This document shows positions 21,702 through 27,266 of a stretch of 64,000 bases of DNA, piece by piece (positions within the stretch are counted from its first letter, which is position 1; each line of letters begins with the position of its first letter). The notes beneath the pieces are model-generated. The model made no database searches. It had not been told where the DNA came from and saw only the letters and a program-made list of their open reading frames with translations. Origin of the DNA: Thermoproteus uzoniensis 768-20 (GTDB taxonomy: Archaea; Thermoproteota; Thermoprotei; Thermoproteales; Thermoproteaceae); NCBI RefSeq assembly GCF_000193375.1, contig NC_015315.1:1186622-1250621 (forward strand), in the 5' to 3' direction. Made by a program: the position numbers and the translations under genes.

Positions 21702-22333
21702 GTGTCGCTGGCTGATGAGATAAAGAGGACTCTCCTGGAGCATCCGGAGATACTGGTGGAGGTGCTCACCGCGAGGCCCCAGATAATATACGAGGTGCTG
21801 GCGAAGGTGGCGCCGTGGGAGAGGCTGGCCACAAAGGAGGACTTAAAGGTCCTCGAGGAGAAGGTGGCGACAAAGGACGAGCTGAAGGCCCTAGAGGCCC
21901 GGATAGCCGCCAAGGACGACATAAGGAGGCTGGAGATAAGGATTGACGCACTGGGCGCCAGGTGGGGCCTCGCCTCGGAGGACGCTTTCAGGGAGGGGGT
22001 GAGGGAGTTGCTTAGGGAGGCCGGCTTCTCGGTGGAGAGGTGGACGTATTTCGACAGCGAGGGCTACGTGTACGGCTACCCGGCCGAGGTGGAGCTGGAC
22101 GTCGTAAGGGACGGGAGGACCTCCTTGTGGAGATAACGTCGGCCTTGAAGAGGGGCGATCTGCCCGTCGTCAAGAGGAAGGCCGAGCTCTACGAGAGTAA
22201 GACCGGCAGGAGGGCCGACGCCGTCATGGCGACTACGGTATACATCCACGACAGGAACCCCTCGCTGGTCCTCGCCGTGGCGCAACAGATGGGCATAAAG
22301 ATTGTGAAGCCCGAGGAAGCCGCACAGACCTAG
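21702..22333 (+). pseudogene. PD-(D/E)XK-like DUF3782 family gene split by a -1 frameshift
   Basis: Two overlapping frames make one protein. Residues 1-139 come from the first frame: helical, with coiled-coil KEDLKVLEEKVATKDELKALE, then REAGFSVERWTYFDSEGYVYGYPAEVELDVV. The second frame continues DLLVEITSALKRGDLPVVKRKAELYE to the stop at 22333. The nuclease-like signature (E-x-ELD ... VEIT ... K) is completed only if the frame changes at the G run 22113-22115, where one G is missing relative to a continuous frame. The GTG start has a TATA-like box about 25 bp upstream. It could be a true pseudogene, programmed slippage or a sequence error. Confidence 0.75.
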
Positions 22334-22434: not shown

Positions 22435-23952
22435 CTATCCCCACGCGGTTATGTTGTACACCCTCAGTTGCTGGCCCGTCTGCGTCTGGAAGCCCACGTA
22501 GTACGGCGTAGCGGCGAAGTAGCAGCCGTATCTCGCCAGTATGTTGCCGTAGCTGTCCCTAATTATTATATCGCCGAAGCCGTTCAGCGGCCTCAACTCC
22601 GCGTACGCCGCCGAGGGGTACGAGCCGAGCTGCGCTGTTGAGCCTCCGCAGATCGCCGAGAACATGGAGCCGGAGATAGATACGCCGAAGATAGGCGTAA
22701 GCGACTGCGTGAAGACGGCGTACGTGCCGGAGCCCGTGAAGTTAGCCACATACGTCAAGGCGCCTTGGATCAGCCGCATATAGGCCACGGCGTTGCCCGA
22801 GAGCTGGAGGTAGCCGGGATATACCTGGACGGTACCCAGACCATACCAGCCGTTCGGCAGAGGGCAGGTGGTAGGCGTAAACGACACGTTCGCGAAATAG
22901 CCCGTCGTCTCGCCGTTTGGCGAATATATCACAAGGGCTATCCCGACTATTCTGCCGGTGCTCCAGACGGGGGCCACGCTCCATTTAATCCAAGTGAGCG
23001 AAGGCGGCGATTGGCTTGAATACAGGATCGATACATTGGGCAGGCTGTAGCCGTAGATCGTCTTCGCCAGCAACATGGGATTTCTGCCGTTTACCGAGAT
23101 GTAGTAGACGACCTCTAGGTCGGGACGTCCGTCGCCTGTGGTGTCTATGAAGAAGTTTAGCTGGGCATAATCGGTACCGGTTAGAGACGATTTGAGGGCC
23201 CACCACGTCGTGAAGTTCCAGCTGGCGGGCACAGGCCCTATCCACTTGCTTATGTTTATGAAGGCGGCGGCGTAGCCGTTCTTTCCGTTGAGGACAAGGG
23301 CTTGGATAGAGCCGAGCTTACTCGGCGTGGTGCCGATATACGCTTCGGAATCGCCGCTTGTGTAGAAGGTGAGCCACGACGGTTGCGTCGTGAAGCTGAA
23401 CGTGTATGCGGGGCAGTAGAACGTCTGCTGGTAAAGCCTCTGCATGGGCTCCGCGGTGAAGTTGACCCACTGCCACGCGTATATGCCGCCCTTGTTGATC
23501 AGGGCCCTCGCCAGCACCGAGTAGCGGCTCGTGGCAGTCATGCTCCACGTCAGGGGGGCCGTGACTGGGACGTAGGGCCCGGCCGTCTGCGTGTTTGAAA
23601 TTTCGACCTGGCCGCCGAGAAATATTGCGAAGGGTCCGCCGGGGTTGCCCGATGCCGAGACCTCCACCAGCCGGGCCGACCAGCCGGACTCCCTCGCCGC
23701 GAGGGCCCCGACGACGTAGGACTCGGGCCAGCCGGGCATGAACTTGATGTAGTAGTAGGTCGCGTTTATGGGGCCTAGGACGTACCAGCTCCTGGCCAAG
23801 GGGTAGAGGGAGGCGTTGCCGGTCTTGAGCACCGGGGGCAACGTCGCGTTGACGGACCAATATGTCGCGTTTGAGAACGCCAGAAGCGCCAGCACTAGGG
23901 CGGCCGCCGACAGAGGAAGCGCTAGGAGCGGTAGGGCACGCCGCGCCGTCAC
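22435..23952 (-). CDS. Large secreted protein with TYWxVNATLPP N-terminal motif
   Basis: This 505-residue secreted or anchored protein has a hydrophobic N-terminus (about residues 5-28) followed by FSNATYWSVNATLPPVLK. The small secreted protein at 26619-27224 carries nearly the same sequence in the same place. The rest is beta-rich with many N-x-S/T sequons and a DTTGDGRPDLEVVY segment that resembles a calcium-binding loop. The GTG at 23952 overlaps the upstream regulator's TGA (GTGA), so I prefer it to longer starts. A minor pilin, tip adhesin or surface enzyme linked to the small paralogue is inferred. No catalytic motif is evident. Confidence 0.75.
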   Translation of the reverse strand: MTARRALPLLALPLSAAALVLALLAFSNATYWSVNATLPPVLKTGNASLYPLARSWYVLGPINATYYYIKFMPGWPESYVVGALAARESGWSARLVEVSASGNPGGPFAIFLGGQVEISNTQTAGPYVPVTAPLTWSMTATSRYSVLARALINKGGIYAWQWVNFTAEPMQRLYQQTFYCPAYTFSFTTQPSWLTFYTSGDSEAYIGTTPSKLGSIQALVLNGKNGYAAAFINISKWIGPVPASWNFTTWWALKSSLTGTDYAQLNFFIDTTGDGRPDLEVVYYISVNGRNPMLLAKTIYGYSLPNVSILYSSQSPPSLTWIKWSVAPVWSTGRIVGIALVIYSPNGETTGYFANVSFTPTTCPLPNGWYGLGTVQVYPGYLQLSGNAVAYMRLIQGALTYVANFTGSGTYAVFTQSLTPIFGVSISGSMFSAICGGSTAQLGSYPSAAYAELRPLNGFGDIIIRDSYGNILARYGCYFAATPYYVGFQTQTGQQLRVYNITAWG

Positions 23953-24602
23953 GAGGACGCCATTAGGTCCAGCTTCTCCCTGTCCTCTAGGGAGAGCGTC
24001 GAGGGGTCTACCGACGAGAGTATCACGTCGGCCGCGGCTCTCCTGTCCACATAGTAGTACGTGAAGGGACCCACCTTGACGGACTTCAGCTTCCCCTCCC
24101 TCTCCAGCACGTAGACGTGCCACTGGACGGCCCCCCAGCTCCTGCCCACGGCCTTGGCTATCTGGGAAAGAGTGGCGGCGCCCATCCTCTGCACGGCCTC
24201 GACGATCTGCCTCTTAAGGGGATCGTCCGCCGTCGCTCTCTTGTAGCGGCCGATTATGGGCGCGAGAGCCGCGAGGGCCCACTCCCTTCTGTTGAGGCCT
24301 ATCTGCGTCGCCGCGGCGGCCCCGGCCACAGCCGCGATAGCCGCAACGGGCAACGACTGGGGCGGGAGCGGAGGTGGCGGAGGGGGCGTCTGGCTCTGGA
24401 CCGCTACGTAGCCCCTAACCTCGACCGTCTTGTTCGTGGGGTTCACGCAGGTTATGACGGCCTCGCCCGACGCCTGGAAGGGCTGGTTGGGCGCGCAGAA
24501 GGGCGGGAGGTGAGGGTAAACGGTGTAGTTGCCCGGCAGGTATAGGTGTATGGGGTATACAGCCAGCGGCAGCAACACGGCGACTACCGTCACATTAAAC
24601 AT
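23949..24602 (-). CDS. Membrane-anchored winged-helix regulator
   Basis: From the ATG at 24602 the 217-residue protein has an N-terminal hydrophobic segment (about 3-20) and a short extracytoplasmic domain with Cys36 and Cys52 and sequons. A run of prolines (about 73-81), a membrane helix (about 84-103) and then a cytoplasmic basic linker follow. The winged helix at about 128-188 includes QIVEAVQRMGAATLSQIAKAVGRSWGAVQWHVYVLEREGKL. This is a one-component transmembrane sensor plan like the ArnR-type archaeal regulators. It is co-transcribed with the large secreted protein. The start is chosen because the TATA-like box (24621-24630) lies 24 bp away. Confidence 0.82.
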   Translation of the reverse strand: MFNVTVVAVLLPLAVYPIHLYLPGNYTVYPHLPPFCAPNQPFQASGEAVITCVNPTNKTVEVRGYVAVQSQTPPPPPPLPPQSLPVAAIAAVAGAAAATQIGLNRREWALAALAPIIGRYKRATADDPLKRQIVEAVQRMGAATLSQIAKAVGRSWGAVQWHVYVLEREGKLKSVKVGPFTYYYVDRRAAADVILSSVDPSTLSLEDREKLDLMASS

Positions 24603-24620
24603 ATCCACACCGACACGGCT

Positions 24621-24640
24621 GAATATATACTTTGCGTAGT
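24621..24640 (-). promoter_or_regulatory. Promoter with ACTACGCAAA element next to TATA
   Basis: On the minus strand ACTACGCAAA (24640-24631) directly precedes the TATA-like GTATATATTC (24630-24621) of the membrane regulator gene. The pilin-like gene promoter has ACTACGTAAA in the same place (27264-27255). The element overlaps the stop of the small membrane protein gene, so this is an internal promoter. Confidence 0.55.
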
Positions 24641-24990
24641 CATATAAGGAAGGGGTCGGGCAGGCCCAGCGCCCGAGCCACCGCGAGGAGCACGACGAGG
24701 TACGCCCAGCCGGATGCCGCGAAGAGGTAGGCTGTCCACCACCTCCTGTAGATGCCCCACCAAGAGTAGACGAGCGAGACCGCCATGAGCCCCAGCGCGA
24801 GCAGGTACGTCAGCCTGACGTAGAACTGGCCCCACAGCTGGGCGAGGACCCCCAACACGAAGCCGTCGGCGAAGGAGGCGAGAAGCCCGGCGGCTCTGAC
24901 GTAGTCGATCTCGGAGCCTTGGTACATCAGGGCCAGCAACGGCGTCAGCGCGAGGGCGGCGCCTATCAAGATGGCGAGTACGGGGTCCAT
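24640..24990 (-). CDS. Small polytopic membrane protein
   Basis: The 116-residue protein (start ATG 24990, MDPVLAILIGAALALTPLL) has about four hydrophobic segments near residues 3-22, 35-55, 60-78 and 90-108, with little soluble sequence. No family is recognised. It follows the other small membrane protein by 1 bp and shares an operon with two secreted proteins, so a role in their export, assembly or anchoring is plausible. Nothing catalytic such as a signal peptidase Ser/Lys pair is visible. Confidence 0.65.
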   Translation of the reverse strand: MDPVLAILIGAALALTPLLALMYQGSEIDYVRAAGLLASFADGFVLGVLAQLWGQFYVRLTYLLALGLMAVSLVYSWWGIYRRWWTAYLFAASGWAYLVVLLAVARALGLPDPFLI

Positions 24991-24991
24991 A

Positions 24992-25387
24992 TCAGAACAG
25001 CCAGAGCGTATACTGTCCCGACATCTGCGCCGTTGCCCAGAGCACGGCGAGGTAGACATACGGCGCGCTGGCGATGAGCGCTATGTCGAGGTCGCGCCTG
25101 GAGGGGTGGAGCGCTAATACAAATATCAAGAGCTGGCTCGCTACGACTAGCGCCAGCGCTATTAAGGCCGAGAGCCTGGCGTAAACCTGAGGCGCCCCGG
25201 ACGTTATGAGCAGGGCCAAGTAGACGTTGGCCGCCGTGCCGAATATTATGAAGGCCGTCGCGGCGTCTCTATCGGGGAACAGCTCCGAGCGGCCGGCACT
25301 CCCCGCGGCCTTCTGCTCAGCCCACTGCCTCGCCACAGCCAGCGCAAGGCCCCAGACCAGTCCGGCGAGGAGCGGGATCAGCTCCAC
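24992..25387 (-). CDS. Small polytopic membrane protein
   Basis: The start is taken as GTG at 25387 (ELIPLLAGLVWGLALAVARQW), overlapping the end of the upstream secreted protein gene by 10 bp, giving 131 residues. Four hydrophobic segments are visible (about 3-18, 46-65, 72-93 and 104-122) with a charged cytoplasmic loop (EQKAAGSAGRSELFPDRD). It resembles its 116-residue neighbour in plan but not clearly in sequence. Function is unknown; the conserved gene order with surface proteins suggests an assembly-platform role. Confidence 0.65.
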   Translation of the reverse strand: MELIPLLAGLVWGLALAVARQWAEQKAAGSAGRSELFPDRDAATAFIIFGTAANVYLALLITSGAPQVYARLSALIALALVVASQLLIFVLALHPSRRDLDIALIASAPYVYLAVLWATAQMSGQYTLWLF

Positions 25388-26619
25388 GGCCTCAGCCTCT
25401 CGACAGAGACAGACACTATCTGCGGGAGGCCGCCCCACCGCCCCGTTCTGTCCGCTATCACTACGAAGGGCCCTGCCCAGCCGGACGGCGCGCCGAAGGG
25501 CAGAGGCGCGTTGCGCGTGTAGGGGACCATGGGGCCTAGGTAGTAGTACGTCGTGCCGTTCTGGGGAAAGACCCAGAAGGGGCCTAGGCGGCCGGCCGGA
25601 GGCCTAGAGCCGAAGAGGACCAAGTCCGACGTGAGGTAGGCCGTTGGGGTGAAGTCGACGTAGTAGAGCAAAGAGTACATGCCCACAGAGGTGCCGAACC
25701 CGTATATATACACTGCGTCGGCTATGGAGGAGCCGTTGGCCGCCACCACCGTCGCCACAGGCCCCTCTATCGTGTAGGCCACAGACAGCTTGGGCTTCGC
25801 CAGCAAGTACGCTGTGGGCCTCGGCGCGCCGATAAGGCCTATGTTGTTAGACGACGCGATTGCGGGGACGTCGACGGCGGGCGCCGGAGGCGCCTTGACC
25901 TCGAGGCAGGGGGCCGGATAGACGTAGATAGTGGCGTTGCCCGATAGATCTAGGAGGAACGTATACCAAGGAGCGCCGCCCTTCGCGGGGATCCAGAGAG
26001 GCGAGCCGCTCACCAAAACGCCGGGGGCCAGCTGGGCGTAGGGGATCGGTTGCGTCACTAGGAGCGAGCCGCCTCGCTCCACGACGCATCCGTCGAGCGG
26101 GAGCTGGCCGACCGCGACGTTCCAGGCGTAGAGCGTCCCGTCGGGCGCCAGCTGGAGCAACTGCCAGCCCGATCCGTTGATAACCACGGCGACTCTCGTG
26201 TCGACGTTGGGGTACCAGTCTATCTCCTTGACCCTAAAGGAGAAGCTCGCCTTCCAGGAGGCGTAGAGGAACTCAACTCTGCAAGCCCCCTGATAGCCCG
26301 GCGGTACGAAGACGTCCAGCCTGTACTCCCCAGGCCCCCTTAGATATGTAGGCAGGCCGAAGGGGCAGTCCGAGTTGACGTAGACCAGGGGGGACTCCAC
26401 GTCGATTGGGATGAGCCCGGGGTACCTCCACGTCCCGAAGGGCGAACTGTAGAGGTAGAACGTCCCGTTCCTAAACGCCGCGTAGGGCGGCGGCGACGGC
26501 TGGGGGAGCAGTGCCGGCTGGGCCGCCTTGAAGACGTACTCCCCCGAGGGGGAGGCCACCGATATGAGAAAAACCAGAAAGGGAAGTAGAGAGACGAAAA
26601 AACGCTTGATTTGTCTCAT
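25378..26619 (-). CDS. Secreted protein of the surface cluster
   Basis: This 413-residue protein has a signal peptide (RQIKRFFVSLLPFLVFLISVASPSG) and then a beta-rich domain with Cys pairs near residues 85/112 and 178/238, sequons and Pro-rich linkers (AQPALLPQPSPPPYA and KAPPAPAVD). There is no C-terminal membrane anchor. It starts on the stop of the small secreted protein (TAATG), showing tight co-expression. A secreted structural subunit, chaperone or cap of the presumed filament is possible; nothing enzymatic is seen. Confidence 0.72.
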   Translation of the reverse strand: MRQIKRFFVSLLPFLVFLISVASPSGEYVFKAAQPALLPQPSPPPYAAFRNGTFYLYSSPFGTWRYPGLIPIDVESPLVYVNSDCPFGLPTYLRGPGEYRLDVFVPPGYQGACRVEFLYASWKASFSFRVKEIDWYPNVDTRVAVVINGSGWQLLQLAPDGTLYAWNVAVGQLPLDGCVVERGGSLLVTQPIPYAQLAPGVLVSGSPLWIPAKGGAPWYTFLLDLSGNATIYVYPAPCLEVKAPPAPAVDVPAIASSNNIGLIGAPRPTAYLLAKPKLSVAYTIEGPVATVVAANGSSIADAVYIYGFGTSVGMYSLLYYVDFTPTAYLTSDLVLFGSRPPAGRLGPFWVFPQNGTTYYYLGPMVPYTRNAPLPFGAPSGWAGPFVVIADRTGRWGGLPQIVSVSVERLRPWS

Positions 26620-27224
26620 TAAGTCGAGAATATTATGTCGACCTCGTAGGTGGCCAAGACCGTGTTTCCGTTTGCGACGCCGGCGCTATAGGCACTGGGA
26701 TCGACCAGAACCGATACGCCTAAAGTTATGCACTGATTCTGAGATATCTGGCCCAGAATAACAGGTCCGGTGCTGGGGGTGCCGGTATAGGTGAAGCCGA
26801 CCCACTGTCCGGTGTTGCTGGGGTTGTATACAATAAACTGTTTTACATAGTTCGAATATGGAGACGATCCGCTGACAGGCCCTACGTACTTTATAGATAC
26901 GGTGAGGGGACCGTTGTAGTAATAGTTGCATACCCTCAGGGCATTTGTGTAGTTCGTTATATCGCCAGTGAAGCCTACTATGGAGATCTTGGTAACGTTG
27001 AGGCCGTTGCCCGGGCTGTACCAAGTCACGTATATGTAGTTGCTGTAGCCGGAGCCGTCGCTTCTGCCGGTGATGCTTGTGTCTGAGCCGGCGTACTTCA
27101 TGGCGGGGGGCAACGTGGCGTTTACTTGCCAGTAGGTCACGTTGGTGAACTGCAACGCCGCAAGCGATATGGCGGCCAGCGCCAGGCCGGCGAACGCCAG
27201 CAGTCCGAGCCTTCTCTTGTCCAT
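26619..27224 (-). CDS. Small secreted pilin-like protein (possible TasA/AbpA-type subunit)
   Basis: The 201-residue protein has a short basic start (MDKRRL), a hydrophobic signal segment (about 6-24) and then FTNVTYWQVNATLPPAMK. A single beta-rich domain ending ATYEVDIIFST follows. There is no type IV prepilin motif. The size, signal peptide and beta-sandwich-like composition resemble the TasA/camelysin-like subunits of archaeal bundling pili known from Pyrobaculum calidifontis; that homology is my inference and was not tested. Two Cys (near 103 and 170) may pair. It is first in its operon, with the ATG 26 bp from TATA, consistent with high expression of a major subunit. Confidence 0.7.
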   Translation of the reverse strand: MDKRRLGLLAFAGLALAAISLAALQFTNVTYWQVNATLPPAMKYAGSDTSITGRSDGSGYSNYIYVTWYSPGNGLNVTKISIVGFTGDITNYTNALRVCNYYYNGPLTVSIKYVGPVSGSSPYSNYVKQFIVYNPSNTGQWVGFTYTGTPSTGPVILGQISQNQCITLGVSVLVDPSAYSAGVANGNTVLATYEVDIIFST

Positions 27225-27228
27225 GTAC

Positions 27229-27266
27229 TTTACATAGTTGAGCAGTATAAATATTTTACGTAGTTG
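27229..27266 (-). promoter_or_regulatory. Pilin-like gene promoter with repeated CAACTAYGTAAA
   Basis: On the minus strand CAACTACGTAAA (27266-27255) abuts the TATA-like ATATTTATAC (27254-27245). A second copy, CAACTATGTAAA (27240-27229), covers the predicted transcription start. The 26-bp spacing between copies brackets the TATA box. The first copy matches the element at the membrane regulator promoter. Confidence 0.6.

Follow-up and report, generated by a model that had tools for sequence, protein, structure and literature searches.

The six genes at positions 22,435 to 27,224 of the window, a 64,000-nucleotide stretch of the Thermoproteus uzoniensis 768-20 genome, probably form a biogenesis and control operon for an AbpA-type bundling pilus, a donor-strand-complemented fibre that would be assembled without type IV machinery (probability about 0.72). 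We refer to these genes, in reading order, as A to F. The first encodes an orthologue of the pilin AbpA, the last a candidate terminal adhesin carrying the same donor strand, and the fifth a membrane-bound winged-helix protein that probably regulates both abpA and itself.

All six genes lie on the minus strand of a genome that consists of a single contig of 1,936,063 bases (Table 1). A and B overlap by 1 nt, B and C by about 10 nt, and E and F by 4 nt, while C and D are 1 nt apart. The original prediction of overlapping or touching genes on one strand thus stands for the strand and for most junctions; it fails between D and E, which are separated by about 31 nt containing a promoter-like element. 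Alignment of relatives indicates that the GTG at 25387 is probably the true start of C, giving a protein of 131 aa. Single N-terminal hydrophobic segments in A, B, and F, two such segments in E, the polytopic character of C and D, and a PF13412 match in E agree with the predicted set of three secreted proteins, two polytopic proteins, and one transmembrane winged-helix protein. Pfam and NCBIfam searches with A, B, C, D, and F returned no match, and no relatives were found in viral contigs. Next to the block, a DUF3782 gene at 21702-22333 (+) is apparently split into two overlapping frames of 144 and 97 aa.

Table 1. Positions of the operon genes, the elements near their promoters, and the prepilin-like adhesin genes; positions without a locus label are those of the window.
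Feature	Position	Strand	Description
A (abpA orthologue)	26619-27224	-	201 aa, predicted major pilin
B	25378-26619	-	413 aa, exported, single N-terminal hydrophobic segment
C	24992-25387	-	small polytopic membrane protein; start in the open reading frame list, 25438
D	24640-24990	-	116 aa, small polytopic membrane protein
E	23949-24608	-	219 aa; start more likely at the ATG at 24602
F	22435-23952	-	505 aa, secreted
CTACGTAAAATATTTA	27248-27263	-	promoter/operator-like; corresponds to Pyrobaculum CAACGTTRAATATWWA; 23 nt upstream of the abpA start codon
CTATGTAAAGTA, second copy of the element	27226-27237	-	adjoins the abpA start codon
CTACGCAAAGTA followed by TATAT	24628-24639	-	same element, in the D-E gap, before E
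Prepilin-like adhesin with F-like head	L157:5777-9301	-	
Prepilin-like adhesin with F-like head	L158:3101-6736	+	

On sequence grounds, A is an AbpA orthologue, homologous over its full length. Residues 6-201 match 7ueg_A with an E value of 5.6e-55 (phmmer), and a profile of 15 relatives matches 7ueg at E 2.8e-87 and no other PDB entry. We take 7ueg to be AbpA, the bundling pilus subunit of Pyrobaculum calidifontis, and presume that locus L032 belongs to this species because it encodes a protein identical to 7ueg_A (204/204 residues); the gene sits inside the same operon. The link to AbpA, originally inferred, is confirmed by this match and by the operon around the 7ueg_A-identical gene, and since A is orthologous to a solved pilin, the filament type is already known rather than uncharacterised as first proposed. 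AbpA-type pili are biofilm-forming surface fibres arranged in bipolar bundles. AbpA is reported to have a TasA-like jelly-roll fold and structural kinship with TasA. Of the TasA/camelysin-like plan in the original prediction, the AbpA part holds by sequence, but the camelysin family PF12389 matched nothing genome-wide at E values up to 10, nor any AbpA relative.

A begins with an N-terminal Sec-type signal (hydrophobic segment 6-24; cleavage site judged by eye), directly followed by the donor strand FTNVTYWQVNATLPP, in which N, Y, W, PP, K, and Y show little or no variation across 15 sequences. As had been predicted, neither A nor F shows a class III prepilin signal on inspection by eye, and the window contains no type II/IV secretion ATPase (PF00437), the six copies in the genome all lying at least 100 kb away; the locus lacks both the prepilin signal and the ATPase that mark a type IV pilus. 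A separate family of about 130 aa without a signal peptide matches the C-terminal half of AbpA and is widespread in the order, even where abpA is absent. It occurs in this genome (L152:5218-5622, -; G000:C1 near 1797325) and at L153, L154, L155, and L156; in L152 and L154 its gene adjoins one for a polytopic membrane protein.

The donor strand recurs in F. Directly after the signal, A has FTNVTYWQVNATLPP and F has FSNATYWSVNATLPP, both fitting exactly the pattern FxN[AV]TYWxVNATLPP that was first noticed from the sequence alone, and the similarity is far beyond chance: the 17-residue donor segments score 71 in BLOSUM62, against a maximum of 26 among 20,000 random 17-mers drawn from AbpA-body composition. 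Only the signal and donor strand of F match 7ueg (residues 8-48, E 3.8e-5); a comparison of profiles gives E 1.1e-12 over the N-terminal 100 residues, and with the donor strand removed the body of F matches AbpA with a probability of 12%. Identity between donor segments is 0.50 and 0.44 within the A and F families, as against 0.33 and 0.38 between them. In the strand it holds in common with the major subunit, F has one feature expected of a donor-only terminal subunit of the TapA or Saci_0405 type.

F has conserved N- and C-terminal domains with a variable middle between them. In two sister species (L040 and L041), F identity is about 97% over the N-terminal part and about 94% over the final 100 alignment columns, but drops to 10-50% in the stretch between, which is, judging from these values, a cassette swap between the two species. 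The middle of the window's F shares 49-52% identity with its counterparts in L035, L037, and L041, and 16-25% with all others. Three genomes of the Thermofilum-like family f14 have a different protein in the F slot, with an N-terminal body that is weakly AbpA-like (probability 77%, E 2e-5) and another C-terminal part; DUF2341 occurs once in the C-terminal part of these f14 proteins. At L034:4611-6844 (-), F is split into two frames by a frameshift or sequencing error.

Large adhesins (1174-1211 aa) that begin like a type IV prepilin (RGLSTVASF) also carry F-like heads. The C-terminal domain of these adhesins is 88% identical to that of F from the same genome in P. calidifontis, 86% in G033, and 96% and 94% in the sisters G029 and G036, whereas the P. 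calidifontis adhesin domain reaches at most 53% with F of other genomes; the N-terminal domains of adhesin and F are 32-46% identical everywhere. The head domain common to F and these adhesins is thus homogenised within genomes and evolves in concert, which is our main reason for reading F as a displayed terminal adhesin and not as a buried part. No prepilin-like adhesin paralogous to the F head was found in the window's own genome. AlphaFold models were poor (whole F, two-sequence input, pLDDT 35; N-terminal domain alone, pLDDT 56, pTM 0.54). Foldseek searches of the PDB with the poor N-terminal model placed the fimbrial donor-strand subunits AggB, AggA, SefD, and CooA among the top matches, none with E <0.001, so we give them no weight, and a search of BFVD with the same model was uninformative. 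Together, the sequence evidence suggests that F is a candidate donor-strand-linked terminal (cap or tip) adhesin. The earlier proposal of a larger minor or tip subunit with a shared N-terminal strand gains indirect support from donor-strand similarity, kept synteny, and cassette swapping in F.

We assigned genus labels to the relatives (Thermoproteus, Pyrobaculum, Thermofilum-like) from presumed kinship. Nearly all Pyrobaculum and Thermoproteus loci that have a complete abpA preserve the order A-B-C-D-E-F. In f14 the order is E-A-X-F, with D nearby in some genomes, and X is homologous to B (hhalign probability 95.8, E 7.7e-9). Synteny in Thermoproteales, which the original prediction had named as a check on its reading, is thus borne out across Pyrobaculum and Thermoproteus and, as E-A-B-F, in the Thermofilum-like genomes. 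Some genomes have a second abpA beside the operon or an extra abpA elsewhere. Three Thermoproteus genomes lack both a full abpA and B, which makes the system accessory. G030 retains abpA as a fragment of 114 aa, has no B, and matches E only through a short wHTH protein. At L037 and L003, C and D went undetected and a HEPN/MNT pair sits between B and E; at some other loci, including L040 and L041, an MNT/HEPN pair lies between D and E. Such insertions of a HEPN (HepT-like) and a nucleotidyltransferase (MNT) gene affect several Pyrobaculum-like genomes and include L037:2121-3052 and L044:5899-6674, the two loci to which the Pfam assignment applies.

B is the conserved second gene of the operon. 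It has no relative in Pfam or the PDB, and we regard its product as a candidate membrane-tethered anchoring or assembly factor. At L033:5594-6822 (+) and L036:7228-8534 (+), B is split into two frames by a frameshift or sequencing error. D appears linked to E, since in G075 the two lie together about 11 kb from the pilin gene; D keeps its place beside E where E and the pilin gene are apart (L206). We considered C and D as tandem duplicates and rejected this (hhalign probability 0.7%).

Most Pyrobaculum genomes encode a further protein, G, as the seventh gene after F or nearby. It has a charged N-terminus, an N-terminal transmembrane segment, and an AbpA-like body (hhalign against AbpA 80-199, probability 97.2, E 3e-11) without a donor strand, features that make it a candidate membrane-anchored acceptor base. 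Thermoproteus has no G, nor was one found at the f14 loci, so G is not a universal base; in f14 this role may fall to B, through its N-terminal hydrophobic segment. With G as the acceptor base and F as a donor-only end, the donor tails would point toward the cell and F would be distal. Donor tails facing the cell beneath a distal cap correspond to hypothesis 2 of the paper on archaeal threads (PMC9715654).

The winged helix of E matches PF13412 at E 5.5e-6 and is preceded by both hydrophobic segments (6-24 and 86-104), a topology that would give E a small ectodomain and place the wHTH in the cytoplasm; mean column identity over 10 relatives is 65%. Elements common to the abpA and E promoters accompany it. 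In the window's genome, the exact pattern CTAYGYAAARTAT matches twice, before abpA and before E, a count that is descriptive because the pattern was derived from these two sites. Allowing one mismatch adds 15 matches in the genome, with 4.5 expected from base composition; the second copy before abpA is among these 15. In Pyrobaculum, the sequences ahead of abpA have GCRCAACGTTRAATATWWA in common, which consists of a CAACGTTG palindrome and the adjoining TATA box. This pattern was found at abpA and then matched E independently. In the eight Pyrobaculum genomes with placeable matches (at most one mismatch), 16/16 sites lie 21-23 bp before a start codon, 12 at abpA copies and 4 at E; about 0.003-0.013 sites per genome would be expected by chance, and reversing the pattern yields no match. 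Two more one-mismatch matches fall at unrelated genes in two other genomes. One of these, at positions 1501-1519 of L168 in G041, a Thermoproteus genome without abpA, directly precedes a class III prepilin gene (MKGLTSIELAILLAIIIVIAV), where the element may serve another pilus. The E promoter of P. calidifontis has no good motif. In f14, GAACTAAWAAGWWTATAA occurs before A and, in two genomes, before E, with one unplaced match elsewhere across eight genomes.

Three lineages thus have three different elements, each common to the abpA and E promoters, and in G030, where a short wHTH protein is all that remains of E, the site before the abpA fragment has decayed. Self-regulation by E best explains such lineage-specific elements that each pair these two promoters: E, a predicted DNA-binding protein, probably controls abpA and itself. 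Because the element overlaps the promoter, repression by occlusion appears likely, and activation would also be possible. The original prediction had given the system its own regulator, and the motif common to both promoters in three lineages makes that case stronger than it was. We also asked whether the E ectodomain mimics a donor strand and rejected the idea, as the best match in the window's E is the signal segment and does not exceed shuffled sequences (p 0.27); the E relatives at L032 and L043 do score for a donor strand in this region, but the match does not hold across the family. A second full-length E paralogue (L202:7888-8562, -; L203:7767-8438, +; L204:7749-8420, +) sits in another conserved operon with what read from sequence as a P-loop ATPase and a ParA/MinD-like protein, and its promoter lacks CAACGTT.

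Each of these assignments has competitors. F could belong to the matrix, bound to the side of the fibre or associated with the S-layer and borrowing a single AbpA groove, or it could act like TapA as an initiator that either departs from the fibre or remains at its base. Such a placement has a precedent in TapA, which donates only its N-terminal strand and is located at the start of the TasA fibre (PMC9674648, PMC10151520), and it would accord with the unknown polarity of archaeal threads (PMC9715654) and with the lack of G in Thermoproteus. An exchangeable middle and a C-terminal domain held in common with a prepilin-like adhesin nevertheless fit an outward, selected head better than a buried base, and we consider a non-terminal F possible but unlikely.

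It is rather improbable, in turn, that the abpA/E motif is bound by another, unlinked factor or represents an unusually strong BRE/TATA variant, with E not binding it. The element does abut the TATA box, and the one-mismatch site before the class III prepilin gene occurs in a Thermoproteus genome that has neither abpA nor full-length E; yet the site occurs almost exclusively at abpA and E, the pairing of these promoters persists while the motif changes from lineage to lineage, and the site has decayed in G030 along with the pilin and the full-length regulator. An S-layer or exported-polymer locus unrelated to pili, a reading open to genes such as B, C, and D that have no known relatives, is contradicted by a first gene orthologous to a solved pilin (E 5.6e-55) and is very unlikely indeed.

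In the bundling-pilus reading that we prefer, AbpA would be exported by Sec, its signal would be cut by signal peptidase I, and its subunits would polymerise by insertion of the N-terminal strand of each into the groove of the next. The strand of F would fill the AbpA groove at one fibre end and its variable adhesive head would be displayed, while B, together with G in Pyrobaculum, would hold or start the fibre at the membrane, donor tails toward the cell and F distal. E would be a one-component membrane regulator, perhaps with D as its membrane partner, and its winged helix would bind the element overlapping the abpA and E promoters, so that pilus genes and regulator are controlled together. 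The polarity of the filament, what B, C, and D do, and DNA binding by E are inferred here. A fuller picture is tentative, and we think it doubtful as a whole: a complete self-regulated donor-strand pilus, its AbpA shaft rising from a membrane acceptor base and ending in a donor-only adhesin with recombining heads that a type IV prepilin-like adhesin also has. Two unrelated pili would thus bear the same head, and E would sense assembly across the membrane and switch abpA and itself through a lineage-specific operator.

The AbpA locus of P. calidifontis resembles the one described here in its full-length orthologue of A and in the same operon around the 7ueg_A-identical gene; it differs in a longer F (754 aa against 505), in its operator sequence, and in that G is missing here. 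ArnR-type regulators of Sulfolobales are membrane-bound winged-helix proteins. By description, they resemble E as membrane-bound wHTH proteins beside surface-filament genes, whereas in E the ectodomain is N-terminal and the cytoplasmic wHTH C-terminal. In chaperone-usher tip adhesins (FimH/PapG), as proposed for F, a donor-strand fibre bears a receptor-binding head that varies. FimH itself has no donor strand, and its head precedes the pilin domain, whereas in F the strand is kept and the head comes after it, implying a polarity opposite to that of FimH. The TasA/TapA/SipW (camelysin) system of Bacillus subtilis likewise combines a donor-strand-exchange fibre with a second protein, TapA, that has the same donor strand (PMC9674648, PMC10151520), but the present genome has no PF12389 match, the operon has no recognised gene for a dedicated signal peptidase, and F, unlike TapA, is a large multi-domain protein. 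Sulfolobus acidocaldarius threads, a separate class of unknown polarity and assembly machinery, offer an archaeal donor-strand-complemented filament (Saci_0406) and a co-transcribed proposed donor-only cap (Saci_0405) (PMC9715654); here, in contrast, the candidate cap is large, variable, and equipped with a signal peptide, and the operon encodes a membrane-bound wHTH protein.

Outside the original paper on the AbpA pili of P. calidifontis (Wang et al. 2022, PNAS e2207037119, as cited in PMC9715654), we found no description of partners B-F in the literature. What appears to be new is the picture at operon level, which combines a variable donor-strand terminal adhesin with a candidate anchor and with a membrane-bound regulator that has an element of its own. 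The operon provides a small, conserved parts list for archaeal donor-strand fibres, comprising a candidate cap, anchor, and regulator and a short, testable DNA element, and through these partners and this switch the building, tipping, and regulation of the fibre become testable. The swapping of modules in F and the C-terminal domain it has in common with a prepilin-like adhesin point to selection on what the fibres bind.
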